A stretch of DNA of 64,000 nt from Nitrospirales bacterium LBB_01 (GTDB lineage Bacteria > Nitrospirota > Thermodesulfovibrionia > Thermodesulfovibrionales > Magnetobacteriaceae), in assembly GCA_004376055.2 (NCBI GenBank), contig CP049016.1:806001-870000 (forward strand), given 5' to 3'. Position 1 is the stretch's first letter. Each line of letters starts with the position of its first letter. A model generated the notes under the pieces. It saw only the letters and a program-made list of their open reading frames with translations. It had not been told where the DNA came from and made no database searches. The translations under genes were made by a program, and so were the position numbers. Of this stretch, positions 17,967 to 44,277 are shown piece by piece.

Positions 17967-18055
17967 CCTTTCCCATTGCTATCAATTGAAATCCACAGCT
18001 TAATTGTGTTACTGTTACCGCAAATGGTAACACATAACTTGGGAGGGTGGGGCGT

Positions 18056-25960: not shown

Positions 25961-26152
25961 GTCAATCATGTTTCAGGATGCTGTGTTTAGGTACAAAGTG
26001 GCATGATGTGATAAGAGGCAGCGCTATTCCGTGCGGCCGCTGACTGCAGTGGGTGTACAGTGGAGGGGCGCAGCACTAAAACGGCAGCAGGGGTTAATTA
26101 AGCAGGTTAGCGTCGGCAATTTTATTAAATACACATTATTACGGAGGGCGTT

Positions 26153-27661
26153 TTGCCGGCAAAAGTCGTCCTTGAGGTTACGGAGGGTAAGCTCAAAGGT
26201 AAAAAATATAAATTTTTGGAGCGTACTACCTGCATAATTGGCAGGGGTGTGGACTGCAGCCCCCGCCTGCCCGATGATGATGAACACAGAACTATTTCCC
26301 GCCACCATTGTCTTTTAGATATAAACCCCCCCGGAATAAGAATAAAAGACTTCGGCAGCTTAAACGGCACTTACGTTAACGGACTTAAGATTGGTCAGCG
26401 CCAGAAATCTCAGAACATCAACGAAATATCTCAAATGGAGTTTCCCGAGTATGATCTGAAAAAGGGAGACGAAATCAAACTCGGCACTACTGTCTTTAAA
26501 GTTAAGACGTATGCGCCTCCACTGTGTTCCGTCTGTGGAGCCGACTTACCTCTTGATAGCTCGGGTGAGTTTAAAACAGAGGGCGGCAGTAACTTGTGTC
26601 AAAACTGTGCTGAAAATAAAGATAAAAAGGATACTGCCCCCGCACTTTTGACCTCTTGCACGGGCTGTGGGAAAATCCTCGGTAAAGACAGCGTTGAACA
26701 GTCCTCAGGGCTTTGCACTGTGTGCCGCGACGATCCGATGCAGGTAGTGAAATCTCTTGTGCCTGCTGAGGAAAAAGACAAAGACGCTCTTGAAATTCAC
26801 GGCTATAAGATATTAAAAGAGATTGGGAAGGGCGGAATGGGCGCTGTTTACCTTGCCAAACATATAGAGACTGGAAGGGATGTGGCTCTGAAGGTTATGC
26901 TTTCAGAGGTTGCCGTTAATGAGCGCTCAAAGGAAATGTTTCTTAGAGAGGTGGAAAACACAAAACACTTAAAGCACCCAAACGTTGTGCAGCTGCTTGA
27001 CTACGGCAACTCACGCGGCACCTTTTATTTTACCCTTGAGTACTGCGAGGGGGGCAGCATAGACAAGATAATGATGGCACAGGGCGGACGACTAAGTATA
27101 GAGGAATCCACCAACATGATAATGCAATCCCTTGATGGACTTCACTACGCTCATACACTAGAAATTCCTAACGTCAAACTGGCCGATGGCACAATTGCTA
27201 CACTAAAAGGATTAATCCATAGAGATATAAAACCCACTAATATATTTATAACAGAAGCCGATGGAACAAAATTGGCAAAAATAGCAGACTTTGGATTGGG
27301 TAAAGCATTTGATGCCGCTGGCTTAAGCGGCTATACCCGTACAGGAGCCTCTGCCGGCACCCCTGTTTTTATGTCCAGACAACAGGTTATCAATTTCAAA
27401 TACTCAAAACCGGAGGCTGACGTTTGGGCTATGGCAGCCACTTTTTATTACATGCTTACAGGGCGTTTTCCCAGAGATTTTCCCAAAGGTAAGGACCCAT
27501 GGTACATAGTGCTTCAGAGCAAGCCGGTACCGATACTGAAAAGAAATCCTAATATACCTAAGAAGCTGGCCGAGGTGATAGATGAGGCACTTATAGACCA
27601 GCCTGAAATTAAAATCAAAACCGCTCTTGATTTTAAGCGAGCGCTGGAGGGTGCATTATGA
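26153..27661 (+). CDS. FHA-domain Ser/Thr protein kinase
   Basis: Cytoplasmic eukaryote-type protein kinase of 502 aa. An FHA phosphothreonine-binding domain covers about residues 20-105 with GRG, SRHHC and FGSLNGTYVNG. Two CxxC pairs follow (CSVCGADL...CQNC and CTGCGKIL...CTVC, about 125-200), probably zinc-binding. The kinase domain runs from about 222 to the end: GKGGMGAVYLAK loop, VALKVM lysine, HRDIKPTN catalytic loop near 357 and DFGLGKA near 380. No membrane helix or PASTA domain. The start is TTG 26153 with GGAGGG just upstream. Its stop overlaps the phosphatase gene as ATGA, so kinase and phosphatase are made together. Confidence 0.93.
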   Translation: MPAKVVLEVTEGKLKGKKYKFLERTTCIIGRGVDCSPRLPDDDEHRTISRHHCLLDINPPGIRIKDFGSLNGTYVNGLKIGQRQKSQNINEISQMEFPEYDLKKGDEIKLGTTVFKVKTYAPPLCSVCGADLPLDSSGEFKTEGGSNLCQNCAENKDKKDTAPALLTSCTGCGKILGKDSVEQSSGLCTVCRDDPMQVVKSLVPAEEKDKDALEIHGYKILKEIGKGGMGAVYLAKHIETGRDVALKVMLSEVAVNERSKEMFLREVENTKHLKHPNVVQLLDYGNSRGTFYFTLEYCEGGSIDKIMMAQGGRLSIEESTNMIMQSLDGLHYAHTLEIPNVKLADGTIATLKGLIHRDIKPTNIFITEADGTKLAKIADFGLGKAFDAAGLSGYTRTGASAGTPVFMSRQQVINFKYSKPEADVWAMAATFYYMLTGRFPRDFPKGKDPWYIVLQSKPVPILKRNPNIPKKLAEVIDEALIDQPEIKIKTALDFKRALEGAL

Positions 27662-29412
27662 ATAAAGCGATAACATTCGCAGGCTTAACCGACAAGGGGC
27701 TGGTTCGACAAAGAAATGAGGATAACTTGTCCATGAACCCGGAGCACGGCATGTTTATTGTATCCGATGGTATGGGAGGACATGCCGCAGGAGACCTTGC
27801 CAGTAAAGAAGTCGTAGAAAACCTGCCCGGTCTTTTAATTAAATATATGCAGCACATCGCTAGCCTCAAGGGCCCCGATGCCGTTGAGACAATCTCATCA
27901 GCCCTCACCGAGCTTAATGAACATGTGCGAATTATAAGTAAATCCAAACCGGGGCTTTCCGGCATGGGCGCCACAGTTGTTCTACTGATAATAAAAAACC
28001 GGGAGGCCATTGTCGCCCACATGGGTGACAGTAGAGCATATCTGCTAAGACACGGTTCCCTTACCCAGCTCACCATGGACCACTCTGTCATACAGGTGTT
28101 GATAAACTCTGGAGAAATCACTCAGGCGGATATCCAAAGCCACCCGGCCAGAGGAAAAATCACTCGTTGTATCGGTATGTCCGGGGATGCACTGCCGGAG
28201 ACCAAATTCATGGTACCTCAACCCGGCGACAGGTTCCTGCTTTGCAGCGACGGCCTCACTGGAATGGTCGGCGACAGCGATATAAAAGAAACGCTTATGA
28301 ACATTGCTGACTCAGAAAAAGCCTGTGCCTCACTGATTAAATCAGCCATCACAGCAGGCGGCATTGACAATATCACCGTGATTGTCGTTGACTACGTTTT
28401 AAATGATGACTCTGACAGCGATGTTACTCCTGTAACCATCTCAGACACAGAAAAGTACGGCTCGGGGGAAAAAGACACCGCTGAGACAACAGACTTTGCT
28501 GCTTTGGTCGTAAATCTGGATAAAACACCGCCTCAGTTTAGCTTACCCGTGACCGCTCCTTCTTTTACGATAGGAAGGTCATCAAACAACAATTTAAGTT
28601 TAAAGGTGGACAAGACCGTATCACGCAACCACTGTGTTGTCAGAGTGGAGGGGGGTGAGTTAATTTTGGAGGATCTTGGCAGCCGAAACGGCACATACCT
28701 AAACGGCAAACGCATAAAGGGAGCTGTGAGTCTGCCCTTGCCCTCGTGGTTTGCTGTTGGACGCACAAGGATTGGTATAATCCCTCCCGGCTCTGATGAG
28801 GCGCAGGCTGATGATTTGCTTGATGAGGCCTATAGCTCTGAGGGAAGTATATTAATTCCGCCCAGTGAGTTCTTTGAAGAACGTACGGAGGCGCTTCTGG
28901 TTGTTGACATAGTGGGTTCAACGAGAATTGTAAAACTGGGTGAAACTCACCTTGTTAAAGTCATATCGGCTCTTGGGCAGCTGCTTGAAAAATCCCTGCA
29001 AAATGAAAAACATGCCTTTCTTAAATGCACAGGGGATGGTTTTTTTGCTATTTTTAGTTCGGCCGATGCCGCTCTGAGTGCAGCCCTTAAGCTCTCACCG
29101 GGAATCCTCAGACACATAAAGATTCCGGTTCAAATATCGATAGCTCTTCACTGGGGCTCAGTACGTCTTACTCAGGAGGGCGAACGCACCGGACGAAACG
29201 CTCATGCTGTGTTTTCCCTTGAAGACCTAAGACACAGAGAGCCAAAAGTAAACGAACGCTTGACCCCTCATCACAAAGAATTTATACTTATGACCGACCC
29301 CTTCTGGAGTAACCTCAACCCGGCTTCACAACTTAAGGCACTGCCCATCGGCTCTTATACGCTTAAGGGACTGGATAAGCAGGAAAAGATTTACTACTGG
29401 AAAACTCAATAA
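27658..29412 (+). CDS. PP2C phosphatase-FHA-adenylate/guanylate cyclase-like fusion
   Basis: Three-domain cytoplasmic protein of 584 aa. Residues 1-245 form a PP2C-type Ser/Thr phosphatase with all metal motifs (EDNLSM; SDGMGGHAAGD; GDSRAYL; CSDGLTGMV; GGIDNITVIV). An FHA domain follows at about 285-370 (IGRSSNN; SRNHCVV; GSRNGTYLNG). Residues about 405-580 match class III cyclases: metal aspartates in LVVDIVGSTR and KCTGDGFFAIF. The later motif that should hold Asn and the transition-state Arg reads TGRNAHAVFS, with no Arg four residues after Asn, so cyclase activity is doubtful. It should oppose the adjacent kinases. Confidence 0.9.
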   Translation: MNKAITFAGLTDKGLVRQRNEDNLSMNPEHGMFIVSDGMGGHAAGDLASKEVVENLPGLLIKYMQHIASLKGPDAVETISSALTELNEHVRIISKSKPGLSGMGATVVLLIIKNREAIVAHMGDSRAYLLRHGSLTQLTMDHSVIQVLINSGEITQADIQSHPARGKITRCIGMSGDALPETKFMVPQPGDRFLLCSDGLTGMVGDSDIKETLMNIADSEKACASLIKSAITAGGIDNITVIVVDYVLNDDSDSDVTPVTISDTEKYGSGEKDTAETTDFAALVVNLDKTPPQFSLPVTAPSFTIGRSSNNNLSLKVDKTVSRNHCVVRVEGGELILEDLGSRNGTYLNGKRIKGAVSLPLPSWFAVGRTRIGIIPPGSDEAQADDLLDEAYSSEGSILIPPSEFFEERTEALLVVDIVGSTRIVKLGETHLVKVISALGQLLEKSLQNEKHAFLKCTGDGFFAIFSSADAALSAALKLSPGILRHIKIPVQISIALHWGSVRLTQEGERTGRNAHAVFSLEDLRHREPKVNERLTPHHKEFILMTDPFWSNLNPASQLKALPIGSYTLKGLDKQEKIYYWKTQ

Positions 29413-29422
29413 TGGTGAGCAA

Positions 29423-32400
29423 ATGCCTATCATAACAGCTTGCCCAACTTGCGGGTCAAAATACAGCGTGTCATCATCATTGACTGGTAAAAACGCCAAG
29501 TGTAAAAAGTGTGGCGGCACGTTTAGAATAGAAAAATATGCGGCAGAGCAATCCGTCTCAATGCAGACTATGGAAAAAGGCTCAGGCTGCTCGTGGAACG
29601 TTGGGGATGTAATATTAGACCTCTATGAGGTTTCAGGGCTTTTGGGCGAGGGCGGAATGGGCAAGGTGTATAAGGTTAAACATAAGGGCTGGAATGTTGA
29701 CCTTGCCGTGAAATGCCCAAAGTCGGCGGAGCTGGCAAGAGCGGGGGGATCGGAAAACTTTGAGCGTGAGGCTGAGACGTGGGTCAATCTCGGTCTGCAT
29801 CCGCATATAGTCAGCTGCTACTACGTAAGAGAGGTCGATGAGGTTCCAATGGTTTTTGCCGAATACGTGGATGGCGGGAGTTTAAACGACTGGATTCATG
29901 ACGGCAAACTAAACACACTGGACGCCATCCTTGACGCTTCAATACAGTTTGCATGGGGGCTCCATTATGCTCATGAAAAAGGGCTTATTCACCAGGATAT
30001 AAAACCGGCTAATGTCATGATGACCTCAGAGGGCATAGCCAAAGTTACCGACTTCGGACTTGCCAAAGCCGTGGGAATGTCATACGGTCAGGATAGTTTT
30101 GAAGACTATGGTTTGAATAAATTAGTGACGCCGGGAGGGATGACGCCGGCTTATTGTTCTCCTGAGCAGGCCAATCAGGAACAACTTTCCCTTAAGACCG
30201 ACATTTGGTCATGGGCAGTGTCTGTGCTTGTGATGTTTACCGGGGAGGTGACCTGGCCCTCGGGCACAGTGGCAGGGGAGGCTATGAAGTGGTATCTGGA
30301 AAGTATGGGCGATGGTCTCAGTAATAAGAACCTGCCGGCTATGCCGGATGAGGTAGCGGAACTCCTTACCAGGTGCTTTAAGGAAAACCCAATTGAACGT
30401 CCAGACAGTATGTTTGATGTAGCCCGTGAACTTATAAAAATATATGAGAAGTTAATTGGTAAAAATTATGCTCGCACTGCCCCAGAGGTCAGCACGGCTA
30501 CAGCCGATAGTCTTAATAACCGAGCAGTCTCTCTTCTTGACCTTGGCAGAGAGGAGGAGGCAGAGCGGCTATGGACCGAGGCGCTTCGGATTCAGCCCCA
30601 TCATCCGGAATCCAGCTTTAACCTTGGGCTATCTCAGTGGCGCGGAGCTAAGATAACAGATAACTCACTTGTCAGACTGCTGGATGAGGTTCAGCGCTCC
30701 CACCCTGAAACCCCAATAGTGAAATATCTGACAGGTCTTGTGCATCTGGAAAGAGACGACTGCTCACTTGCTTTAAAATACCTTAACGATATAGACCCAA
30801 CTATAACGCACCTTGAGGACATTAGGTATGCGATAGTTTACGCACAATCGCAAAAAGGGCGTTCAAAGGGCTGCCTTAGAACCTTTACCGGACATGATGA
30901 GCCTGTAACCGCCGTAGGGTTAAGTGCAGACGGCAGAATTGCCATGTCGGGTAGTCTTGATAAGACACTTCGTCTTTGGGATACGGAAACCGGAACATGT
31001 CTGAAAGTTTTTATAGGGCATACAGACGGCATCCTATCGGCATATATGCTGCCCGACGCATCGCTTATAATCTCCGGCAGCCGGGACAAAACGGTACGAG
31101 TGTGGGATGTTAAAAGCGGCTACTGTCTCCACACTTTTAAAGGCCACATGGATGGAGTTACCTCGGTGTTTATAGAGCCGGGCGGGCGTAACCCGCTATC
31201 GGGCAGCATGGATGAGACAATAAAACTATGGGATACAAAAACAGGCACTTATATGAGGTCTTTTATCGGGCACAAAGGAGATATAACATCGGTTTATCTT
31301 ACAAAGGATGGAAAATATGTAGCGTCATCGTGCAAAGACGGTACAATACGGCTTTGGGATGTTTCCTCTCTTAGATGTCTGCACACATTTAAGGGGCATA
31401 TCGGTGCTGTTAACTTTATGTCGGTAAGTAAAAACGGTCAGACAATGGTCACAGCTGGAGCTGACAAGAGCGTAAAATTGTGGGACTTGACCACCCGTAT
31501 ATACAGTAAAACCATGTATGGTCATGGTGAGGCGGTAAGCGGGGTTTTTGTGGACTCAGTAGGTAAGACATTTGTCTCTGTAAGTCATGATAAGACAATG
31601 ATCCAGTGGGCAGTTGACTCCGGCAGAGGTATGCGCACCTTTGAGGGACACTCGGAGTCAGTTAACGCAGCGGCTCTGTCAGAGGATGGCAGATTTGCCA
31701 TTACAGGAGGCGATGATAAACAAGTAAAATTCTGGGATGTCACCTCCAACAGGGAATCTTTCCGAGCACCTATGATGCTCTCTCAGGTACTTAAGAGCGA
31801 GGCTGCGTTTTCAGCCATGGCAGCCTACTCGCAGGAACTTAAGGAGGCAAAGAAGTGTTTTAAAGAGGGGGATTTTAAAAAGGCGGCAGCTCATATAAGA
31901 AAAGCACGCTCACAGCGCGGCTATAGCCGTGACATCGAGGCGTTGACTATGTGGATGGAACTGTATTTGCGTTTCCCTCGTCACAAATTTGTAGGCGGCT
32001 GGGAGGGTGTTACATTTAAAGGGCACAGTGGATCGGTCACTTCAATTTCGGTTGACAGTCACGGAAAACTTTTGCTTACCGGCAGCATAGATAAAACCAT
32101 TCGGCTTTGGGATATAGAAAGCGGTGATTTAATTAACACATTTAAGGGATTCCCTGCCGGCATAACCAGCGTGCATCTGAGCGAGGACGGTCTGTATGCA
32201 GTGGCAGGCACTATGGATAAAACCATAAGCTTTTGGGACGTACAAAAGGGTAAGCAGATAAGAGCTATCAAAGGGCATGAGGGAGTGGTACGCAGCGTAT
32301 ATCTCAGCAACGATTGTCATTTGGCTGTTACCTCAGGGGACGATAAAACTGTAAAGGTTTGGGATGTTACCACAGGGCGTCTTATTAGATCGTATGATGA

Positions 32401-33130
32401 CCACACTGACCCTGTCATGGCTGTTTCATTAAATGCCGACAACAGGTTTTTTATAACAGGTTGTGCTGATGGTAAACTTAAGGTGTGGGAGATGACAACA
32501 GCTAACTTTGTGAAAGCTCTTGCCACTTATGAAGGACACACAGATGTAATAAACACGGTGGCGTTAAGTCTGGACGGAAAACTTGTGGTAACCGGCAGCG
32601 AGGATATGACAATAAGGGTGTGGGATCTGTCTTTAGGAAAATGCGTAAAGAAACTTGAGGGCCACACGGCAGGGGTTACCACAGTAAGCATAAGTGCCGA
32701 CAACAACTTCTTACTTTCTGGTAGTAACGACAATGCTGTAAGACTTTGGGATATCAGGTCGGAAAGCTGTGTGCGAGTATTTAAGGGGCATCAGTTAGGG
32801 ATAAACTCGGTATTGTTGAGCCGTCATGGCAGACATGCTTTCTCAGCAGGCGATGACGGCGAAATAAAGCTATGGACGCTTGACTGGGAAATAGACGATA
32901 CAAAAGAGGGCAGGTGGGATGACTCAGCTTATGGATATCTTGAGCTGTTCCTTGCCTCCTTTGTGCCTTATGTATCGGGGAGCCTTGCCCGCCGGGGAAA
33001 ACCAGGCTGGAAAGATAAGGACCTTGAAGAACTGTTCTATAAGCTTGGATGTGTCGGCTGCGGCTGGATCTCTCATGAAGTAATTAAAAAAGAAATAAAA
33101 ATACTTGAAGGCAAAAAGTTTTCAAAATAA
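29423..33130 (+). CDS. Zinc ribbon-Ser/Thr kinase-TPR protein with 14 WD40 repeats
   Basis: Large cytoplasmic protein of 1235 aa. An N-terminal zinc ribbon (CPTCGSKY...CKKCGGTF, MJ0042 type) leads into a kinase domain at about 62-330 with GEGGMGKVYKVK, DLAVKCPK and DFGLAKA. The catalytic loop is HQDIKPAN instead of HRD. A TPR-like stretch at about 355-480 precedes seven WD40 blades (about 482-776), a helical linker (about 780-860) and seven more blades (about 862-1155), for example GSLDKTLRLWD and GSNDNAVRLWD. This fits two complete seven-bladed propellers. A C-terminal unassigned domain of about 75 aa ends it. Last gene of the kinase-phosphatase-kinase operon, 10 bases after the phosphatase gene. 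Confidence 0.92.
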   Translation: MPIITACPTCGSKYSVSSSLTGKNAKCKKCGGTFRIEKYAAEQSVSMQTMEKGSGCSWNVGDVILDLYEVSGLLGEGGMGKVYKVKHKGWNVDLAVKCPKSAELARAGGSENFEREAETWVNLGLHPHIVSCYYVREVDEVPMVFAEYVDGGSLNDWIHDGKLNTLDAILDASIQFAWGLHYAHEKGLIHQDIKPANVMMTSEGIAKVTDFGLAKAVGMSYGQDSFEDYGLNKLVTPGGMTPAYCSPEQANQEQLSLKTDIWSWAVSVLVMFTGEVTWPSGTVAGEAMKWYLESMGDGLSNKNLPAMPDEVAELLTRCFKENPIERPDSMFDVARELIKIYEKLIGKNYARTAPEVSTATADSLNNRAVSLLDLGREEEAERLWTEALRIQPHHPESSFNLGLSQWRGAKITDNSLVRLLDEVQRSHPETPIVKYLTGLVHLERDDCSLALKYLNDIDPTITHLEDIRYAIVYAQSQKGRSKGCLRTFTGHDEPVTAVGLSADGRIAMSGSLDKTLRLWDTETGTCLKVFIGHTDGILSAYMLPDASLIISGSRDKTVRVWDVKSGYCLHTFKGHMDGVTSVFIEPGGRNPLSGSMDETIKLWDTKTGTYMRSFIGHKGDITSVYLTKDGKYVASSCKDGTIRLWDVSSLRCLHTFKGHIGAVNFMSVSKNGQTMVTAGADKSVKLWDLTTRIYSKTMYGHGEAVSGVFVDSVGKTFVSVSHDKTMIQWAVDSGRGMRTFEGHSESVNAAALSEDGRFAITGGDDKQVKFWDVTSNRESFRAPMMLSQVLKSEAAFSAMAAYSQELKEAKKCFKEGDFKKAAAHIRKARSQRGYSRDIEALTMWMELYLRFPRHKFVGGWEGVTFKGHSGSVTSISVDSHGKLLLTGSIDKTIRLWDIESGDLINTFKGFPAGITSVHLSEDGLYAVAGTMDKTISFWDVQKGKQIRAIKGHEGVVRSVYLSNDCHLAVTSGDDKTVKVWDVTTGRLIRSYDDHTDPVMAVSLNADNRFFITGCADGKLKVWEMTTANFVKALATYEGHTDVINTVALSLDGKLVVTGSEDMTIRVWDLSLGKCVKKLEGHTAGVTTVSISADNNFLLSGSNDNAVRLWDIRSESCVRVFKGHQLGINSVLLSRHGRHAFSAGDDGEIKLWTLDWEIDDTKEGRWDDSAYGYLELFLASFVPYVSGSLARRGKPGWKDKDLEELFYKLGCVGCGWISHEVIKKEIKILEGKKFSK

Positions 33131-33224
33131 TATTAATTACAGGTATAATAAATATGTGAGGACAGTGGGTTGTGTATAGAATCGTGACAGGGCATAGTAT
33201 CAGGTCTATAAAGGAGTGTGAGTG

Positions 33225-33788
33225 ATGGTCCAGAAAACTTACGAGGCAAATCTGGAGACAGCTTTGTCGTACCTAAAAAATGATCAAAGAAAAGACGCTG
33301 TCTCTACCATGAAACGGGCGCTTGCTCAGGTGCCGGAGGACGAGAAACTGCCCGAGAATCTTGCGTATCTAAAAATACTGTTTTTCTGCGCCAGATTTGC
33401 CATTGAGGACACCGACGAAAGAGTTGCCTACTACTACATTAAAGAGGGCATTAAGACTAAGAAGTTCTACGCCGATTTTCTCTTCCTTGACATTTTTCTT
33501 GCCAAACTCCAGCACAGATACGGCGATATGCTTAGCTCAATCATTGCATATCTGATTTCCATAGATTTACCGGATAGAGATATGTATAGTTATGATTTTG
33601 TCAATGCTGACGCCATCAATGAGGTGTTTACCGTCTATTTGCCCCTTGCGTACAATAACACTCAAAATCACGCAATGATTCTAAACGTACTAAACAACAC
33701 AATTGAAAAAGTCAGAGAGTTCTCTACCGGCGAAAACGTCTCTAAAGCTTATGACATCATGCGCTCTATGGATTTTAAAAGTAACTGA
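33225..33788 (+). CDS. Helical protein of unknown function
   Basis: I do not recognise this 187-aa protein. It looks all-helical and TPR-like (YEANLETALSYLKNDQRKDA, VSTMKRALAQVPEDEK, VAYYYIKEGIKTKKFYADF) with no signal peptide or membrane segment. ATG 33225 has AAGGAGTG upstream and is preferred to GTG 33222. It sits between the WD40 kinase and a GT-B-like gene, two bases before the latter, so it probably works with that protein. It could be a scaffold or regulatory partner. Confidence 0.65.
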   Translation: MVQKTYEANLETALSYLKNDQRKDAVSTMKRALAQVPEDEKLPENLAYLKILFFCARFAIEDTDERVAYYYIKEGIKTKKFYADFLFLDIFLAKLQHRYGDMLSSIIAYLISIDLPDRDMYSYDFVNADAINEVFTVYLPLAYNNTQNHAMILNVLNNTIEKVREFSTGENVSKAYDIMRSMDFKSN

Positions 33789-33790
33789 TT

Positions 33791-34960
33791 ATGACTGCTC
33801 CTAAAGTGCTCTTACCCGTAGGAGAGACCGAACTACAGGCCACAAGCGGGAGGCTTTTACACATTGCCAAATCTCTTGCCCTTGAGGGTATATCGGTTGA
33901 TGTTATCACCTACAGCGAGTCTGTGGCAGAGTTTTCTAACGGACTTTTTAAGGAAATGAAGAATGTAAGAACTGTTCGCATTGAGTCTGAACCGACACAC
34001 TATCACCATGTGACATCGCTGGTTAATACCTTTATCAAGTTAACATACGATATTTACCTTCCTGAGACCGATCTGAAATTTTATAAGCTTACAGCTTTTG
34101 ATGATTTCAGGGGTCATATCGCTAACTTCACATACCCTGAGACAGATTTCTCCACTTACGACGCCGTCATTTTCCCTATTCCCTCAAACGAGATTCCGCC
34201 ACTTCCCGACGCTGACATATTCTACTCCACTATATGCTTTTACGCTAAGGAAAATAAAGTCCCCCTTGTCGGTATCCAACTATATCCTGTGGTTCAAACC
34301 CCTCCCATATACTATTCTGCACTGGACTATATAATTTTAAAGCACGACTGGGAGAAAGAGATGCTCAAAGAGTTTGCCTTTGACCTAAACAAGGCATTTG
34401 TGGTTACCTACGGTCATGAGGGGTATTTTTTCAGCACTATTGAGGATAAATATCTTGACACTTTGCTTAATCCCGGCATTCATATTCCCAAACAGGAGCT
34501 ATCCATCATGCTTATCAATCATCCCAGGCTAAGATTCTGTGTCTCGGAGGCTCTGGATGTCCTCAATGAGCTTGATATGCCTAAAACCGTATTTTTTCTT
34601 AAACGAAAATTTGTCATTAGAGAGCTTACCGAGGATGACATTATAAACGACTACTTTATGCCAAAAATAAAGAAGCTAAAGGGTAGGGCTTTCTTAATGG
34701 AGCCGGACTCTAAAGGCTCTTTGCTTTTGCTTTCAGATGTTATAATATCCCCTGCGTACCTGACCACACTGGGATTTGCCGCTGGGTATGGAAAGTTGGC
34801 CGTAGTGTATAATCCACTTCTTGATAAGAAACTTGCCGATCGCAATGCCACATTTATAGAGAATAAGGAACAACTAAAGAGCGCTATTTTAAAGTTTTAT
34901 GAGCAGAAAAAGGCTTTAATATCCATTGCTGACATCATAAGGACAGTGATCAATGAGTAG
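33791..34960 (+). CDS. GT-B-fold glycosyltransferase-like protein near flagellar genes
   Basis: Soluble 389-aa protein with a two-Rossmann layout typical of GT-B glycosyltransferases: an N-terminal nucleotide-fold start (KVLLPVGETELQATSGRLLHIAKSLALEG) and a C-terminal half where VIISPAYLTTLGFAAGYGKLAVVY resembles the donor-site end of such enzymes. A clear E-x7-E motif is missing, so the family is not assigned. It lies two bases after the helical protein and directly before the sigma-28 promoter and flaG-fliD-fliS. A role in flagellin or other surface glycosylation is plausible from position, not proven. Confidence 0.55.
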   Translation: MTAPKVLLPVGETELQATSGRLLHIAKSLALEGISVDVITYSESVAEFSNGLFKEMKNVRTVRIESEPTHYHHVTSLVNTFIKLTYDIYLPETDLKFYKLTAFDDFRGHIANFTYPETDFSTYDAVIFPIPSNEIPPLPDADIFYSTICFYAKENKVPLVGIQLYPVVQTPPIYYSALDYIILKHDWEKEMLKEFAFDLNKAFVVTYGHEGYFFSTIEDKYLDTLLNPGIHIPKQELSIMLINHPRLRFCVSEALDVLNELDMPKTVFFLKRKFVIRELTEDDIINDYFMPKIKKLKGRAFLMEPDSKGSLLLLSDVIISPAYLTTLGFAAGYGKLAVVYNPLLDKKLADRNATFIENKEQLKSAILKFYEQKKALISIADIIRTVINE

Positions 34961-34997
34961 GCTGTTGACAAGTTTAATTTTTTTGTTAAAAAAAGAC

Positions 34998-35024
34998 TAA
35001 AGTTTTAATTAATGCTACCGATAA
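34998..35024 (+). promoter_or_regulatory. Sigma-28 (FliA) flagellar promoter
   Basis: TAAAGTTT (34998-35005), 11 bases, ACCGATAA (35017-35024). This differs from the enterobacterial sigma-28 consensus TAAAGTTT-N11-GCCGATAA by one base. It points at the mini-ORF and flaG-fliD-fliS, late flagellar genes that this sigma factor normally controls. Leader to the next start codon about 180 bases; no other gene is seen in 34961-35212. Confidence 0.8.
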
Positions 35025-35212
35025 GGAAAGTGAAAGCTGTGAGGCTTTAATCGTAAATACTTAGGAAGGGGTTATTAAGGGGGTGTGTGATAGAGGGGTG
35101 GCAAAGAGGGATTTCAACAAAAGTACCGGAGAAGATGGAAGCGGATAATAAGATAATAGCTGGATGCTGTTATGTTAGACATAAAGGGATTAAATTTACA
35201 GGGAGGTAGGCT

Positions 35213-35302
35213 ATGGTATTAGTGGTAGATACGATGATAACATATGTGAATGCACAGCGTGGTTTAGATATGGCACGGGCTGACTCAAGAGAGGAGGTTT
35301 AG
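35213..35302 (+). CDS. 29-residue ORF resembling a flagellin N-terminus
   Basis: ATG to TAG gives a 29-residue peptide beginning MVLVVDTMITYVNAQRGL. Flagellins start with a block like INTNVAALNAQRNL; nearly every position here is identical or conservative, including NAQR. GGGAGG lies seven bases before the ATG, and the flaG ribosome site overlaps its end. It sits under the sigma-28 promoter exactly where fliC often precedes flaG. It may be a flagellin remnant, or a small translated leader peptide. No flagellin-like sequence continues in the other frames after the stop. Confidence 0.5.
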   Translation: MVLVVDTMITYVNAQRGLDMARADSREEV

Positions 35303-35305
35303 GAC

Positions 35306-35644
35306 ATGGATATTAACTTAGGGCCTCTTAGTACGTATTCTCAGAGCTGGGCAAAAAAGTCACAACAGACTGATAGTAGCGTAAGTGGACAGGATCCGCG
35401 TAACGGGCAGCAAAGTGCTGGTGACGGCAAGCCAAATAATGTCTCAGAAAAAACACAGACAGAAAAACCAGCTGAGGCAAACGAGAGTAAGGCGGTTTTT
35501 GCCGTTGATGAAAATAAAAATGTTGTTATCAGGATTTTAGATTCTGGTGGTAAAGTCGTTAAGCAAATACCTGCTGAGGATTATGTAAAGATGGCGCAGC
35601 AATTAGAACAAAGCGCAAAGAGTCTGTTCCATAAGGAGACTTGA
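35306..35644 (+). CDS. flaG: FlaG-family flagellar protein
   Basis: Small 112-aa protein with a low-complexity polar N-terminal half (many Q, S, D, K) and the FlaG domain at the end: AVFAVDENKNVVIRILD and GKVVKQIPAEDYVKMAQQL. FlaG proteins affect filament length; the molecular role is not settled. GAGGAGG precedes the ATG. fliD follows after one base, so the two are co-expressed. Confidence 0.88.
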   Translation: MDINLGPLSTYSQSWAKKSQQTDSSVSGQDPRNGQQSAGDGKPNNVSEKTQTEKPAEANESKAVFAVDENKNVVIRILDSGGKVVKQIPAEDYVKMAQQLEQSAKSLFHKET

Positions 35645-35645
35645 C

Positions 35646-37028
35646 ATGGCAGCTATAACATCACCTACGGGAACAACATCATCAGGCGGCACTATAACGT
35701 CAAGTGTTGGGCCATTTTCGGGGATAAACACAGGGGATATAATTAACAAGCTTATGTCTATAGAGCAGCAGCCCTATGATAAGCTTACCACTAAAATACA
35801 GACAGATCAGACCGAGATAAGCTCATTTGGGCAGATAGCGTCCAATTTAACTTCTCTTAAAACAGCTCTTACTAATATTCAGTCTAAGAATCTCAACACA
35901 TATACTGCTGCGTCATCTGACACCGGTTCTGTAAAGGTTACTGCTGACTCCACAGTAAACGCTGGGCAGTATAGCATAAAGGTTTATCAATTGGCACAGT
36001 CAGAAAAGCTCTATTCTCAATCTGCTACATCTGTTTCTGCTGTTTATAATTCCGGCACGATTACTGTCAAAAACGGCAGCCATAGCACCACCATAAACAT
36101 CAGTACCTCCAATAAGACTCTTTCCGGTATCAGGGACGCCATAAATTCCGCTGCTACCGACGTCAGCGCCACGATAATCAGCGATGGTTCCGGTTACCGT
36201 TTAATGCTTAACTCTGTAGGCGGCACATCATCTAGCCCGCTGTCTGTGTCTGTTTCAGATACCGGAGGGAATGCAAAGTCCTTGAGTGCCTTTAGTTTTG
36301 ACCCAGCAAATCCTAACCCAACAGACGGCAGCGGCATGACTTTACTTCAGTACCGCCAGGACGCCAAATTTTCAGTGGACGGTTTCCAGCTTACAAGCTC
36401 CACAAACAAAGTCACTAACGCTTTAAGCGGATTGTCTATTGATCTTCTTAACACTACGTCTAACAGAGCTGTTACCATCTCTGTTGACGCCAACTCCATA
36501 TCAAGCTCAGCCAATATGACAACCTTCATAGATACCTATAATTCTACTCTTGCCTCGCTAAAGCAGCTTAGAACAGCCGGACAGCCTCTTCAATATGACA
36601 GCACTGTTTCATCAATGATAGATACTATGAGAAACGTTTTTAGCTCCTCAGGGGATCCAAGTAATTCTGTAGCCTCTTATGGCATTATGCACAACAAGGA
36701 CGGTACGCTGGCTATAGACACCACAAAAATGGATACTGCAATCCGCAGGAATATGGGGGCTTTTTATAAGGCGATAAATTCTCTCTCCAGTTCTTTTTCA
36801 GCCAGGATAACTAATATTCTGACTAACACCATCACTGCTAAAGATGATACTCTTAATACGCAGATTAAACAGATGACTGACAAACAGACATCAATGCAGG
36901 AAATTTTGGACCTGAAACGGGCTGCCTATGTTAAAAAATTCTCAGACATGGAAGCATCTATTGGACAAATGCAATCACAAAGCAGCAGCTTAAGTAATTT
37001 AACAAGTAGCACAAGTTCAACAAAATAA
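35646..37028 (+). CDS. fliD: Flagellar filament cap protein FliD
   Basis: Hook-associated protein 2, exported through the flagellar channel; it caps the growing filament and folds incoming flagellin. 460 aa, in the family range. N-terminal coiled region with the HAP2 signature (GINTGDIINKLMSIEQQPYD, TKIQTDQTEISSFGQI), a Ser/Thr-rich beta domain in the middle, and a C-terminal helix region (QIKQMTDKQTSMQEILDLKR, YVKKFSDMEASIGQMQSQ). AAGGAG before the ATG. Between flaG and fliS as in many flagellates. Confidence 0.95.
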   Translation: MAAITSPTGTTSSGGTITSSVGPFSGINTGDIINKLMSIEQQPYDKLTTKIQTDQTEISSFGQIASNLTSLKTALTNIQSKNLNTYTAASSDTGSVKVTADSTVNAGQYSIKVYQLAQSEKLYSQSATSVSAVYNSGTITVKNGSHSTTINISTSNKTLSGIRDAINSAATDVSATIISDGSGYRLMLNSVGGTSSSPLSVSVSDTGGNAKSLSAFSFDPANPNPTDGSGMTLLQYRQDAKFSVDGFQLTSSTNKVTNALSGLSIDLLNTTSNRAVTISVDANSISSSANMTTFIDTYNSTLASLKQLRTAGQPLQYDSTVSSMIDTMRNVFSSSGDPSNSVASYGIMHNKDGTLAIDTTKMDTAIRRNMGAFYKAINSLSSSFSARITNILTNTITAKDDTLNTQIKQMTDKQTSMQEILDLKRAAYVKKFSDMEASIGQMQSQSSSLSNLTSSTSSTK

Positions 37029-37054
37029 TTCTTTTTATCACAGGAGGATAGTGA

Positions 37055-37480
37055 ATGCAAAATATCTCTTATGCGCAGAATGCCTACAGAAGCATTGACA
37101 TTGGCAGTTTATCTCCACTTGACCTCATAATTAAGTTATATGACGGAGCTATAAGCTTTTTATCAAAGGCGGCACTCGGCATAGAGAAAAAAGATAAGAT
37201 AGCCAAGATTAACTACATAAACAAGACGCGCATGATTTTAGAGGAACTTCTCTCTTCATTAAATGTGGAGGCAGGCGGTGAGGTAGCTCTGCATCTGCGA
37301 GACCTTTATACCTATATGATTGTTGAGCTTACACGTGCTAATGCTAATAACTCTATCGATAAGGTTTATCATGTTCAGGAACTTATGAGAACTTTAAAAA
37401 GTGCATGGCAGGAAATAAAGATTACAAACACTCCCGTATCGGAGTCGTATGCTATCAAATCAATAAACAGTTCCCACTAA
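37055..37480 (+). CDS. fliS: Flagellin export chaperone FliS
   Basis: All-helical cytoplasmic chaperone, 141 aa, that binds the C-terminus of unassembled flagellin. NAYRSIDIGSLSPLDLIIKL and LYDGAISFLSKA are the family start, and the last third LRDLYTYMIVELTRANANN matches as well. A strong AGGAGG site precedes ATG 37055. Its presence implies that a flagellin gene exists elsewhere in the genome. Confidence 0.94.
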   Translation: MQNISYAQNAYRSIDIGSLSPLDLIIKLYDGAISFLSKAALGIEKKDKIAKINYINKTRMILEELLSSLNVEAGGEVALHLRDLYTYMIVELTRANANNSIDKVYHVQELMRTLKSAWQEIKITNTPVSESYAIKSINSSH

Positions 37481-37533
37481 ACACATAATGGGAATTAGGA
37501 TATTAGTTATTAGCGCTGCCGTGACGTCTCCCC

Positions 37534-38430
37534 TTGGATGTTTTAAACTGCCGGATACTGTCTGTTGACACGCAATGTCATCTTCTGCTACATTACGCAA
37601 GGAGCTTGTACTACTACAACAAGAGTCTGCTTTTCTATGAGACTTGGACGGAGCCGCAACAGATGTCTATAACAAAAGGTGAAAGTGTAATTTGTAAGCT
37701 GATGCCTAAACCAGAGCAATACCTTGCCTCTGTGGATGACTTGCGCGACAACATGATGTTTTTAAAAATTAAAGACGGCACTTCTAATTTGCGCGTTGGA
37801 ATGAGTCTTCTTGTGGCATCAGAAACTATGGACTATTACACGGAGCTTACTGCCTTAAAGGACAGTATCGCTGTCTTACGAATTCAAGGGAGTGAAAAGA
37901 GGGATTATTTCAGAGTGGATGATACCTTTCCTGTGGTTATAACAAAGATAGCAGGGAACCCGTTAGAGAGAAAGTCTAAAATCATATCTGAGTACGGCCT
38001 TGAGTTATCAGATATGCGGACATACACTGTAGATGTGCCGGATGAGAATATCAGTCCGGTGCTTTGGAAAATGCTTGTGGATATAAATATGAAAATTGGT
38101 TTGATTTTGGACAGGTTGTTTTTAGAGAATGAGGGATTGATGAAAGCGCCGGAGAGATCAGTAAGCATAAGCGGCTCCGGAGTGCGGTTACTGCTTGAAG
38201 AGAAATTTGAGCTTCATGATAATGTATCAGTGAAAATGCTTTTGCCCTCATCGCCGCCAATAGGGGTTTCAGTTATTGGCGTTGTAGTGCTTTCAGAGGG
38301 TGTCATGGGGGCGCAGTTTGATACCGCTATAAGTTTCACAAATATTGAAGAGGGAGTAAGGGACGAAATTATACAGTACACCCTTAAGAGGCAGCGAGAG
38401 ACACTGAGAGCACAGAGGGGGCTTAAGTAA
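37534..38430 (+). CDS. PilZ-domain protein (YcgR-like flagellar regulator)
   Basis: Cytoplasmic protein, up to 298 aa, likely to bind cyclic di-GMP and act on the motor. An N-terminal YcgR-type domain (ITKGESVICKLMPKPEQYLA) is followed by the linker with R-x3-R in KRDYFRVD, and a PilZ barrel where SVSISGSG stands in for the (D/N)xSxxG motif with Ser in the first place. That change leaves ligand binding slightly uncertain. The longest frame starts at TTG 37534 without a good ribosome site; ATG 37663 is a possible start, and a TTGACA-N18-TACATT promoter-like sequence at 37565-37594 would fit it. Six bases separate it from motA, which suits a flagellar brake role. Confidence 0.7.
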   Translation: MDVLNCRILSVDTQCHLLLHYARSLYYYNKSLLFYETWTEPQQMSITKGESVICKLMPKPEQYLASVDDLRDNMMFLKIKDGTSNLRVGMSLLVASETMDYYTELTALKDSIAVLRIQGSEKRDYFRVDDTFPVVITKIAGNPLERKSKIISEYGLELSDMRTYTVDVPDENISPVLWKMLVDINMKIGLILDRLFLENEGLMKAPERSVSISGSGVRLLLEEKFELHDNVSVKMLLPSSPPIGVSVIGVVVLSEGVMGAQFDTAISFTNIEEGVRDEIIQYTLKRQRETLRAQRGLK

Positions 38431-38436
38431 CAGATT

Positions 38437-39285
38437 ATGCTGGTTATCGTTGGAATGGTCATAACTTTAGGCGCGATACTGGGCGGCTATCTGATGGAGC
38501 ACGGCAATGTTGCCATGCTTGTCAACATCCCGGAGTTTGTTATATTGGGCGGCTGCGCAGTCGGCTCTTTAGTAGTGTCCAGTCCTCCAGCGGTTATCAA
38601 GCTTATTATAGGAAGCTTGCCTACGATTTTTGGCAAAGGCGGTGCTGAAAAACATGAGTATCTGGAGTTATTGTCCTTGCTATTCATTGTGTTTTCAAAA
38701 GTTAGAAAAGAGGGCTTAATATCAATAGAACAAGACGTGGAGGATCCGAGTAAGAGCGCAATATTTACAAAATATAAAAGTGTTTTGGAAAACAAAAAAG
38801 CTATGGGATTTATTTGTGATAACCTTAAAGTTATAATAACGACCAATATGCCGCCGCATGAGCTTTCCGATTTACTTGAGATAGACATAGAGGCTAATGC
38901 CCATGAAGCGCTCCTGCCCTCCCAAGGTATAAGCAAAGTGGGTGATTCAATGCCTGGGTTTGGTATCGTTGCTGCAGTTTTAGGAGTTGTTGTAACAATG
39001 GGAAAAATCAGTGAGCCTCCGGAGGTGCTGGGGCATAGTATTGGTTCAGCGCTTGTTGGAACCTTTCTTGGTATATTGATGGCGTATGGGTTTTTTGGCC
39101 CGGTATCGACAAATCTGGAGCTTAAGGCAAAAGAGGGCGAGGTTTATTTTCATGTAATAAAGGCAGCACTGGTAGCTTTTGTAGGGGGAGCGGCGCCTCA
39201 GATAGCTGTCGAATCTGGCAGACGTGCTATCCCTAACTCAGAAAGACCGTCTTTTGCAGAACTTGAGGAGGCGATAAGAAAATGA
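38437..39285 (+). CDS. motA: Flagellar motor stator protein MotA
   Basis: Inner-membrane stator subunit, 282 aa, forming with MotB the ion channel that drives rotation. Four membrane helices are visible (starting VIVGMVITLGAILGGYL, EFVILGGCAVGSLVV, SMPGFGIVAAVLGVVVTMG, IGSALVGTFLGILMAYGFF). The conserved channel proline is in SMPGFGI. The large cytoplasmic loop at about 65-170 carries the charged residues that contact FliG. ATGA overlap with motB shows coupling. Confidence 0.95.
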   Translation: MLVIVGMVITLGAILGGYLMEHGNVAMLVNIPEFVILGGCAVGSLVVSSPPAVIKLIIGSLPTIFGKGGAEKHEYLELLSLLFIVFSKVRKEGLISIEQDVEDPSKSAIFTKYKSVLENKKAMGFICDNLKVIITTNMPPHELSDLLEIDIEANAHEALLPSQGISKVGDSMPGFGIVAAVLGVVVTMGKISEPPEVLGHSIGSALVGTFLGILMAYGFFGPVSTNLELKAKEGEVYFHVIKAALVAFVGGAAPQIAVESGRRAIPNSERPSFAELEEAIRK

Positions 39286-40118
39286 AAGGACAAACTATAA
39301 TCATTAAAAAGGTAAAAAAAGGCGGCCATGCTGCTGCTCATGGCGGCTCGTGGAAAGTTGCATATGCCGACTTTGTTACGGCTATGATGGCTTTTTTTCT
39401 GCTTATGTGGCTTATTAATATGACGTCTCCTGAGAAAAAACTTAAGCTGTCCACATATTTTAAGACTGTTGGGATTATGGAGGCAGCTGGTTTAGGTTTT
39501 ATGGGTAAGGGGAAGGATATTCTTGATACCAGTATTGTTAATCCTGCAGAGGAATTAGCAGAGAAAAAAGGCGACAGCTTCTACCAGTTAAACAAAGAGG
39601 AGTTTAAGGAAAAGCTTAAAAAGGACATAGAAGATAAATTAGGCGCAGTAAAGGATCAGGTGATGGTTGATGTGATAGAGGGCGGCGTACGGATAAACAT
39701 CGTAGATAAATTAGGAAAACCCATGTTTACCATTGGCAGTTCAGAGTTGGCCCCTGAAGCAAAGTCAGTTTTAAAGCTCGTATCAGAGGAAATAAGAGAG
39801 TTTAAAGATCTCAAGATATCGGTAGAAGGACACACCGATTCTACAGCATACTCCGGCAATAAATATACCAACTGGGAGCTTTCCACTGACAGGGCATCGG
39901 CAGCACGCAGGGAGTTGGAAAAAAACAACATTGATCCAAATGATTTGGCTAAGGTGTCAGGTTTTGCGGCAACTCAGCCTCTTATCGCTGATAAACCAAA
40001 TGACCCCAGAAATAGAAGGATAAGCTTACTACTTTTGAGTACCGATCAGGCTGCTGTTGAAAAACTGACGGGTAAGAAAAGCGGAAAAACAAGTTCAAAC
40101 AAAACAGAAACCCATTAA
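39282..40118 (+). CDS. motB: Flagellar motor stator protein MotB
   Basis: Stator subunit with one membrane helix and a periplasmic peptidoglycan-binding OmpA/MotB domain, 278 aa. The helix region SWKVAYADFVTAMMAFF contains the ion-carrying Asp in YADF. A plug-like stretch follows, and the OmpA domain at about 150-260 includes LKISVEGHTDS and LSTDRASAARREL. The basic N-terminus KKVKKGGHAAAHGGSWK is typical. Type of coupling ion cannot be decided from this sequence. Confidence 0.95.
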   Translation: MKGQTIIIKKVKKGGHAAAHGGSWKVAYADFVTAMMAFFLLMWLINMTSPEKKLKLSTYFKTVGIMEAAGLGFMGKGKDILDTSIVNPAEELAEKKGDSFYQLNKEEFKEKLKKDIEDKLGAVKDQVMVDVIEGGVRINIVDKLGKPMFTIGSSELAPEAKSVLKLVSEEIREFKDLKISVEGHTDSTAYSGNKYTNWELSTDRASAARRELEKNNIDPNDLAKVSGFAATQPLIADKPNDPRNRRISLLLLSTDQAAVEKLTGKKSGKTSSNKTETH

Positions 40119-40135
40119 AAAGGGAGGTGTTTACT

Positions 40136-40489
40136 ATGAGTGGTAAGTTTGAGATAGAGGTTAAAGGCTCTGTGATAATAGCGCACTACGAGGGAGAGAT
40201 GGACAGTGCTCTTGTAAACGACTCTGCAACGCAGATTGAGGAGCTGTTGGATAAGACAGAGGCAAACAAGATACTTTACGATACGCTGAAGATGTCAAAT
40301 CCACCAATGAAGCTGGCACTCCAGATGAAGAGCTTTGATGCTCGCATTAAAAATAAGGTGATAAAGAGTGCTACAGTGGTTCCTGGCGCTGCCACTGCGC
40401 TTAAGGCCTCCATTGCCTTTGTGCTTTCAAAACACCATAAGGTATTTCATAACGACTATGACGCCGCTATTGAATGGTTAAATGCCTGA
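40136..40489 (+). CDS. SpoIIAA-like/STAS-type protein
   Basis: Small soluble protein of 117 aa with the alternating strand-helix pattern of the STAS/SpoIIAA-like group (FEIEVKGSVIIAHYEGEMDS at the start, DAAIEWLNA at the end). Related domains are switched by Ser/Thr phosphorylation in sigma-factor control. GGGAGG lies before ATG 40136, so the GTG at 40127 is not used. It sits between motB and an FHA Ser/Thr kinase gene, a position that makes it a candidate kinase target; this is inference. Confidence 0.6.
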   Translation: MSGKFEIEVKGSVIIAHYEGEMDSALVNDSATQIEELLDKTEANKILYDTLKMSNPPMKLALQMKSFDARIKNKVIKSATVVPGAATALKASIAFVLSKHHKVFHNDYDAAIEWLNA

Positions 40490-40529
40490 GAGTCTTTTCA
40501 TACTACAATCACTAAGAGCATAGGGGACT

Positions 40530-42017
40530 ATGAAAGTAACTCTTGATGTAACAGCCGGTCCTAACACCGGAGAGAGATTCATATTTACCGAATCGGACAC
40601 TTTTTTAGTCGGCAGATCAAGAAAGGCGCACCTGAGGCTTAACAAAAAAGACGATCTTTTCATTTCAAGAACTCATTTCATTTTAGAGATAAGACGCAAT
40701 ATCTGTTACATAACCGATATAAACAGCACTAACGGTACCCTTGTAAATGACAAACGGATAGACAGAGCGGAACTTCACGATGATGATGAGATTACAATAG
40801 GCAATACAAAAATACTGGTGCATATTGATCAGGACGACACCCAGAGGTACCACTACGTGTTTTGCAGTGCGTGTAAGGAAAACGTTGACCACGAGGTGGA
40901 TGAGAGCGTTCCTCAGAATGAGCGGGAATTTATGGCATATACGTGCAGGTCGTGCAGGGCTTTAGAGGAGGAGCGTAAGGTAAGCAAAAAACACACTGAT
41001 TCACACAAACATTATACCTGTGTAAGTTGTAACACTGACATGACAGATGCTGCAAACTATGACGGCAGGGCGGCAGAGTTTGAAGACAGTATTTATCTGT
41101 GTACAAACTGTGAGTGGAAATGGCGCACTAAAACACCTACGTTTGAAGCAGGAGATGCTTATGTGGTGTTAAGTATCATAGGGCGCGGCGCAATGGGGAC
41201 AGTGTATAAGGTAGTTGAGGTCAACACACGGCGTGTGTATGCGCTTAAGAGAGTTAACATTGACGGCAAGAAAAACTCCTCTGGGCTGAAACTCTTTGCA
41301 CGGGAGATGGAAATCCAGTCACGTTTGAATCATAAGAATCTGATTAAATATCTTGACAGAGGAGAGGCCGGAAATATGCCCTTCTTAGTCAGTGAGTTTA
41401 TGCCGGGAGGGGATTTGGGTAAACTCATAAAGATGACGCTTAAAGGCCCGCTGCCTCCACAGTATGCCTGTAAAATTATAATACAGGTTTTAAACGGCCT
41501 GCAGTTCATCCATTTAAATGGATACGTACACAGAGATCTAAAACCCTCAAATTTTCTTTTAAATAGAGCTTACACAGACACTGGGCTGACGATAAAAATC
41601 ACAGACTACGGACTTGCAAAATCTTATGAAGAGGCTGGAAACTCACTGTATGATTTTACCCAGACAGGGACGTTTGGCGGCTCTTTGATGTTTCTATCGC
41701 CGGAGCAGATTACAAATTATAAATTTGTGAAACCGCCATCGGATATTTACTCTGTGGGCGTAAGTTTGTATTACATGTTGACAGCCAAATACACTGTTAA
41801 GTATCCGCCTGAATCCAGCCGTTCCGGTAAGAAGTGGAGGCATCCGCTTGATATGGTTTTAGAGGATGCGCCGATTCCCATATTAGAGCGTAACAAAGAC
41901 CTGCCCGATGCCTTAGCCGCTGTTGTTGATAAATCTGTCACAAAAGACGAGTATAAAAGATTTCAGTCGGCTTCTGAATTTAGAGAGGCTCTCTGTGAAG
42001 CTATTGACGGGTTGTAA
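40530..42017 (+). CDS. Second FHA-domain Ser/Thr protein kinase
   Basis: Cytoplasmic kinase of 495 aa with the same order as the gene at 26153: FHA (about 20-95; VGRSRK, SRTHFIL, NSTNGTLVND), two Cys-pair segments (CSACKENV...CRSC and CVSCNTDM...CTNCEW, about 112-200) and a kinase domain (about 208-490; GRGAMGTVYKV, HRDLKPSN). The metal-binding DFG is DYG here (ITDYGLAKSY). No membrane segment. Together with the SpoIIAA-like protein and motAB it forms a run on one strand. Paralogy with the 26153 kinase is clear from shared layout including the cysteine modules. Confidence 0.92.
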   Translation: MKVTLDVTAGPNTGERFIFTESDTFLVGRSRKAHLRLNKKDDLFISRTHFILEIRRNICYITDINSTNGTLVNDKRIDRAELHDDDEITIGNTKILVHIDQDDTQRYHYVFCSACKENVDHEVDESVPQNEREFMAYTCRSCRALEEERKVSKKHTDSHKHYTCVSCNTDMTDAANYDGRAAEFEDSIYLCTNCEWKWRTKTPTFEAGDAYVVLSIIGRGAMGTVYKVVEVNTRRVYALKRVNIDGKKNSSGLKLFAREMEIQSRLNHKNLIKYLDRGEAGNMPFLVSEFMPGGDLGKLIKMTLKGPLPPQYACKIIIQVLNGLQFIHLNGYVHRDLKPSNFLLNRAYTDTGLTIKITDYGLAKSYEEAGNSLYDFTQTGTFGGSLMFLSPEQITNYKFVKPPSDIYSVGVSLYYMLTAKYTVKYPPESSRSGKKWRHPLDMVLEDAPIPILERNKDLPDALAAVVDKSVTKDEYKRFQSASEFREALCEAIDGL

Positions 42018-44272: not shown

Positions 44273-44277
44273 TTTAA

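Follow-up and report, generated by a model that had tools for sequence, protein, structure and literature searches.

Does a Ser/Thr kinase gene that lies beside the flagellar motor genes belong with the motor? The question is raised by some 16 kb of Nitrospirales bacterium LBB_01, within a stretch of 64,000 nucleotides (contig CP049016.1, positions 806,001 to 870,000; G000:C1:806001-870000 in our numbering) that we call the window; the genome itself is one contig of 3.27 Mb. A preliminary description had read three kinases, a PP2C phosphatase and a SpoIIAA-like protein, interleaved here with flagellar genes, as one phosphorylation system for motility or filament glycosylation. Comparison with relatives divides the region in two. 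One kinase, K2, is the last gene of a flagellar block (unit B) and its linkage to motAB is conserved; the other two kinases and the phosphatase form unit A. Gene order conserved in two genera suggests a tuning of their swimming by protein phosphorylation. The reading we prefer, at slightly less than an even chance, is that K2 is a stator-associated kinase tuning the stator or a PilZ brake, and that unit A is separate and general.

Where does K2 stand?

The order of unit B is flaG-fliD-fliS-PilZ-motA-motB-(SpoIIAA-like)-K2, and in the window it is laid out, with the two genes that precede it, as follows:

33222..33788, plus strand: 188-aa protein, no family match; leftmost gene of the flagellar block common to two genera
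33791..34960, plus strand: 389-aa protein, no family match; within the shared block
35306..35644, plus strand: flaG (Pfam)
35646..37028, plus strand: fliD, filament cap (Pfam)
37055..37480, plus strand: fliS, flagellin chaperone (Pfam)
37663..38430, plus strand: PilZ protein, perhaps YcgR/MotI-like; open reading frame (ORF) from 37534, likely start 37663
38437..39285, plus strand: motA (Pfam); no other match in the genome at E 1e-5
39282..40118, plus strand: motB (Pfam)
40127..40489, plus strand: SpoIIAA/STAS-like protein; follows motB in 12 of the 18 loci of the family
40530..42017, plus strand: K2, FHA - two zinc ribbons - Ser/Thr kinase (Pfam FHA and kinase); last gene of the shared block

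Relatives were sought in 198 genomes within the phylum (drawn from more) and by one collection scan using patterns of close relatives. The family set holds 19 genomes, among which MotA was found in 18, and we read 18 motAB loci (17 fetched, plus the window). Domains were called at Pfam and NCBIfam cut-offs. Names for neighbouring genes come from homology to window proteins, from Pfam in a few chosen cases and, for the rest, from inspection by eye; a flagellar gene could be missed in this way.

All 18 loci hold PilZ-motA-motB. K2 is present in eight of them: the window's genus (g1) and the Magnetobacterium genus (g99) have four genomes each, and none of these lacks it. In each of the eight it directly follows motB or motB-SpoIIAA-like, on the same strand and after a gap of 31-92 bp, and among matches at E 1e-30 in the family genomes there was no K2 away from the stator. 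The linkage of K2 to motAB is conserved. The block shared by g1 and g99 runs from the 188-aa gene to K2 (the G203 contig is visible only from a flagellin-like gene on). Beyond its ends, in stretches that are short, none of 23 g1 ORFs 3' of K2 had a match at E 1e-10 among 21 ORFs from g99 (L065 gives one ORF), nor did any of eight g1 ORFs 5' of the block match any of eight from g99. The conserved order thus stops at K2; it does not belong to a longer run of collinear genes.

In other families of the order, MotA is present at E 1e-20 in 34 genomes. Of these loci 20 were read, one of them cut off within motB, and in none does a kinase adjoin motAB. A kinase-model match beside motAB in G188 was set aside as a Cys-rich, cytochrome-like protein by eye. 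K2 is probably co-transcribed with the motor genes. In the promoter scan the count did not exceed that of shuffled sequence (39 vs 39.0, standard deviation 6.1), and in the terminator scan it did so a little (20 vs 17.3, standard deviation 3.6), so the operon call rests on gene spacing.

Among named loci, K2 of "Nitrospirae bacterium" nDJH6bin1 is 88% identical to that of the window, and those of Ca. Magnetobacterium casense MYR-1, MYbinv3, nDJH13bin1 and nMYbin3 match at 52-54% identity; these five are not counted in addition to the numbered genomes. Just after K2 in Ca. Magnetobacterium casense, on the opposite strand, stand five 159-aa ORFs in a row (L037:11577-14384), with DUF29 in the one tested.

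What kind of kinase is K2?

K1, the first kinase of unit A, and K2 share an architecture of an FHA domain, two four-cysteine zinc ribbons and a kinase domain. A third paralogue, K3, lies at G000:2632021 and is 42% identical to K2. In a tree built from 34 sequences of 16 genomes there are clades of K1 (14 members, support 0.968), K2 (8, 0.987) and K3 (12, 0.929), with K2 and K3 as sisters. Each of the eight zinc-ribbon cysteines is conserved in all 34 sequences or in all but one, the exception being one gapped K1 row. Among the 198 phylum genomes, full-length members of this type occur in six, all from this family, and one genome matched across the kinase domain only. A G208 fragment considered as a possible K2 is actually K3 (92% identical to the G206 K3).

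By score and by catalytic residues K2 is a Hanks-type Ser/Thr kinase: PF00069 scores 163.9 bits in K2 and 140.3 in K1 (cut-off 31.7), and K240, H334-R335-D336 and D359-x-G361 are invariant in the 18 sequences checked, in the form DYG in K2. Its FHA domain is supported by PF00498 (59.1 bits, cut-off 20.7) and the related PF16697 (42.9 bits, cut-off 33.2). The FHA residues that bind phosphothreonine are Gly-Arg, Ser-x-x-His and Asn-Gly, and G28, R29, S46, H49, N68 and G69 are invariant in the same 18 sequences. K2 has eleven invariant residues that no K3 shares and that at most one K1 has. One of them, Thr67, in the FHA loop before Asn68-Gly69, is invariant in the eight K2 proteins, Arg/Lys in the 12 K3 and Leu in the 14 K1, which suggests a distinct FHA binding preference for K2. 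In a yeast FHA domain the matching residue contacts the phosphate. The structure model of K2 was poor (mean predicted local distance difference test, pLDDT, 49.2) and was excluded from the fold search.

In most contexts seen, G198 excepted, K3 is accompanied by a WD40 kinase and a small lipoprotein-like gene (by eye). FliW and a second small gene adjoin this K3/WD40 kinase unit in two genomes, G132 and G206, and stand 5' of the K1 unit in G172 (L085:3092-4227, L207:7989-9085, L080:5147-6233); the second gene is SprA-related in L085 and L080, the two tested. As a second flagellar link, FliW near unit A (G172) or the K3 unit (G132, G206) was rejected, the independent events being too few.

How old is the linkage?

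The pilZ and motA trees each place g1 with g2, a genus that lacks K2 (1.0 each; 99 and 100 in second trees), as does a pilZ-motA-motB concatenation (100). Within the K3 clade g1 again groups with g2 (0.987), and within the K1 clade more weakly (0.657). The genus g99 goes with g97, which also lacks K2, in the K1 (0.952) and K3 (0.987) clades and in the pilZ and concatenated trees (86 each). Since pilZ, motA and the concatenation join g1 with the K2-less g2, vertical descent and loss are favoured over transfer. Most simply, K2 would have stood beside motAB before these genera arose and then have disappeared from g2 (six loci) and from g97 (one). A transfer of the flagellar block between g1 and g99 is not favoured, as the pilZ, motA, motB and concatenated trees never join these two alone.

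What might K2 act on?

The PilZ gene lies 5' of motA in all 18 family loci. In the window its ORF is over-extended at the start (the likely ATG is at 37663). Brakes of the YcgR/MotI kind have an N-terminal brake domain and a PilZ domain with RxxxR and D/NxSxxG. Here the PilZ domain scores 25.9 bits (cut-off 22.5), and RxxxR and S-x-S-x-x-G, found by eye, are about 85 residues apart. Between known PilZ brakes and this protein there is a difference, a long insertion, with a partly helical look in a low-confidence model. Against PDB sequences there was no match at E 1. The model (mean pLDDT 46.7) has the MotI/DgrA fold (PDB 5vx6, E 5.7e-5) as its top match, with VCA0042 and YcgR lower. The PilZ protein before motA may therefore be like the YcgR/MotI (DgrA) brakes, by context, Pfam and this weak fold match. 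YcgR is reported to bind MotA and FliG, more strongly with cyclic di-GMP (c-di-GMP) (PMC10140304). The known brakes answer to c-di-GMP, and no adjoining Ser/Thr kinase was met in the parts of the literature available to us.

The SpoIIAA-like gene follows motB in loci of four genera and is missing from the locus in g99, which keeps K2. Its PF11964 score falls just under the cut-off (24.3 of 25 bits). At residue 57, a candidate place, chosen by eye, for a phospho-accepting Ser, the 12 proteins have Ser (five), Asp/Glu (six) or Ala (one).

Columns that set K2 genomes apart were scanned for phosphosites. A weak lead is residue 5 of MotB, in the cytoplasmic tail, for which half of the eight K2 genomes have Thr and half Ser; among ten others, seven have Asn and one Ser. 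It may be a K2 phosphosite. MotB residue 99 was rejected (outside the cell by position), as were the FliS and FliD columns (2 and 9; a single comparator) and five SpoIIAA-like columns (the protein is absent from g99, and at residue 57 the outgroup G172 also has Ser).

How would such a kinase work? K2 would be expressed together with the motor genes, and its FHA domain would dock on a phosphothreonine partner. It would phosphorylate a motor-side protein, which might be the MotA/MotB stator, the adjoining PilZ brake or K2 itself as a docking scaffold, and this phosphorylation would tune stator engagement. The PP2C-FHA phosphatase of unit A may reverse the marks. The block would then hold the stator, its brake and a kinase. 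The substrate of K2, the direction of the effect and the phosphatase are what we infer. It is doubtful, in our judgement, that the arrangement goes as far as a dedicated stator kinase whose FHA domain reads phosphothreonine and whose activity directly gates the stator or the c-di-GMP brake, such that phosphorylation and c-di-GMP would meet at the motor of these Nitrospirota.

Is unit A part of it?

The features of unit A in the window are:

26020..33130, plus strand: unit A block; borders given by DNA homology to the G062 unit, in two pieces
26153..27661, plus strand: K1, FHA - two zinc ribbons - Ser/Thr kinase (Pfam FHA and kinase); first gene of unit A
27658..29412, plus strand: PP2C phosphatase - FHA - cyclase-like C-terminal domain (Pfam PP2C and FHA)
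29423..33130, plus strand: Ser/Thr kinase with WD40 repeats (Pfam kinase and WD40)

Unit A is widespread in the family, and lies intact beside the flagellar run only in the window genome. Many relatives are draft genomes; the flanks of unit A are not visible in G208 and are one-sided in some others. In 14 relatives at least one flank is visible, and none of these shows the flaG-motAB run. The neighbours in G062 are isochorismatase-like and mnmG-like genes, those in other genomes differ (by eye), and in G172 FliW lies 3.7 kb 5' of the unit. K1 and PP2C-FHA are adjacent wherever both are visible, with the exception of a divergent K1-like copy in G209 (L215), which is followed by two WD40 kinases in place of PP2C-FHA. 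The WD40 kinase comes after PP2C in most genomes, though not in g99 genomes with a visible flank. PP2C-FHA itself occurs in all eight K2 genomes (partial in G209) and in eight without K2.

The left flank of the G062 unit matches the window genome at 762.6-767.3 kb of G000:C1, without unit A there; its right flank was not located in the window genome, and the flagellar contig of G062 ends before the place of unit A. The sister genome G209 has a K1 fragment at its flagellar locus (213-226 aa, matching at 81-85%, stops inside) with the same left border as in the window, and on another contig the 3' part of PP2C with the WD40 kinase and downstream genes as in G062. The fragment makes the adjacency of unit A and the flagellar genes older than the window genome. 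Unit A has thus moved within the genus, in one direction or the other. A 1008-aa DUF4062/TPR gene (L214:1491-4517) adjoins the G209 fragment.

The preliminary description had asked whether the kinases are separated from the flagellar run in relatives. Unit A largely is, with the G209 fragment speaking against its separation; K2 is not, standing beside motB in every locus that has it. Jointly with a stator role for K2, it is close to a toss-up, tilted a shade to the doubtful side, that unit A is a separate, general signalling unit whose flagellar adjacency is confined to the window's genus.

The cyclase-like part of the phosphatase (28855-29409) has no Pfam match at 0.01 and an NCBIfam match under its cut-off. 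Both motif aspartates are invariant in eight sequences (62-97% identity to seven relatives) and stand where the metal ligands of a cyclase are expected.

Which explanation fits best?

Several observations weigh against a stator role for K2. Linkage is not function, and the structure models of K2 and of the PilZ protein are poor. Ten of the 18 family motAB loci lack K2, so the motor can work without it. The phosphosite scan gave no K2-specific conserved Ser/Thr in MotA or PilZ, and the MotB lead is Ser in four of eight K2 genomes and one of many columns scanned. The motB tree splits g2 from the rest (0.971; second tree 100) and does not join g1 to it, and the SpoIIAA-like tree joins g1 with g97 (0.895). 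Could K2 be a passenger, inserted after motAB in an ancestor and kept for convenient expression, with targets that are not motility proteins? The ten loci that hold PilZ-motAB without it would fit, as would its sister K3, for which no flagellar neighbour was recognised in most genomes. However, K2 stayed last in the block though every gene seen beyond it differs between the genera, and it was found nowhere else in the 19 family genomes; we consider a passenger unlikely. That K2 acts on the making of the filament, by way of FliD, FliS, FlaG or the 188-aa/389-aa pair, and not on the stator is, we think, quite improbable. All eight K2 genomes have flaG-fliD-fliS 5' of PilZ-motAB-K2, and in the K2-less g2 and g97 these three genes are not within the fetched stretch, but G172 has flaG-fliD-fliS-PilZ-motAB-SpoIIAA-like without K2, and K2 adjoins the motor end of the block.

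There is little to recommend K1, PP2C-FHA, the WD40 kinase, the SpoIIAA-like protein and K2 as a single system for motility or filament glycosylation. Their adjacency in the window genome, which the G209 fragment shows to be no novelty of that genome, speaks for it. Against it are the places of unit A in the 14 relatives with a visible flank, its retention in genomes without K2, the G062-site left flank that lacks it in the window genome, and the four g99 genomes that keep K2 with the SpoIIAA-like gene missing from the locus. Kinase control of motility is plausible for K2; the joint system and control of filament glycosylation found no support. Finally, MotAB with a SNF2 helicase 3' might recall a Zorya-like defence island: the SNF2 protein at 45634-48999 matches DpdE and ZorD models. 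We give this almost no weight, as defence models match the kinase and SNF2 domains in a general way only, MotA_N and MotB_plug are present, the single MotA stands beside fliD/fliS/flaG in a genome with six flagellin matches (none inside the window), and the four g99 loci showed no SNF2 gene beyond K2. The flagellar context refutes membership of Zorya. A stator-associated K2 with a separate unit A remains our preference.

How does this compare with known systems?

Bacterial stators are known to be controlled directly by c-di-GMP brakes, by ion supply and by load. Among the open-licence papers listed on FHA and Hanks-type kinases, flagellar motility and MotA/MotB phosphorylation, none is, judged by title and abstract opening, about a stator-linked Ser/Thr kinase. 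A kinase kept in the stator operon of two genera would add Ser/Thr phosphorylation to these controls. The setting is a family with magnetotactic members, and magnetotactic cells, which follow field lines as they swim, have to adjust this swimming to redox conditions. Of these kinases, K2 is the candidate to examine for a role in motility.

The nearest idea to stator control by K2 is the archaellum regulatory network (Arn) of Sulfolobus, in which FHA domain and kinase are on separate proteins. Four papers describe an FHA protein, ArnA, with ArnB, the kinases ArnC and ArnD, and PP2A (PMC5300886, PMC6509490, PMC12852372, PMC7472852). Like the present region, Arn as described there combines an FHA domain, eukaryotic-type kinases and a phosphatase, and it controls a swimming organelle; unlike it, Arn is archaeal, acts on archaellum components and expression and has no stator linkage in those accounts. 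The likeness is one of idea, and no homology is claimed.

In type VI secretion, control is exerted by PpkA/PppA/Fha, and here too a kinase, a PP2C phosphatase and FHA share one neighbourhood. In the window, by contrast, FHA is fused to kinase and to phosphatase, and the TagH-type FHA match of K2 reaches 37.5 of 120.25 bits, far under the cut-off for a type VI protein. There were no type VI secretion genes among the 20 genes annotated in 20996-45414 (the rest of the genome was not searched), as the preliminary description had said. In NCBIfam, the kinase and PP2C domains match best to the PknB/Stk1 PASTA kinases and the Stp1/IreP phosphatase (NF033483, NF033484). K2 reaches 178.9 of 450 bits against NF033483, across the kinase domain only, with no Pfam match to PASTA in K1 or K2, and is not placed among the PASTA kinases; PP2C falls just under the Stp1-type cut-off (225.7 of 230 bits), and this phosphatase lies outside the K2 block.

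What else lies in the region?

The genes named in the preliminary description are all present at the coordinates listed here, on the plus strand and with Pfam support. Its list left out two genes between the WD40 kinase and flaG, those of the 188-aa and 389-aa proteins, which match nothing in Pfam, NCBIfam or PHROGs (the last searched for this pair). In two genera the pair (33222-34960) precedes a flagellin-like gene or flaG, and in a third, that of G172, it lies near the block; it may act on flagellin. Downstream of K2 is one further group:

42084..45414, plus strand: pseB, pseC and pseF-like genes; after K2 in three of four g1 genomes and in none of four g99

The name pseB holds above its NCBIfam cut-off (497.8 bits, cut-off 407.75), and the names pseC and pseF follow from Pfam class and gene position. 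The whole genome has seven FHA matches and 15 kinase match rows, of which 13 are above the cut-off, two of these within one ORF. Elsewhere in the window, a tandem repeat at 18431-18915 has copies 141 bp apart (75% over 344 bases) inside the ORF 18047-18970, and short dispersed repeats lie near 1571, 5824, 17935, 45481 and 54118.

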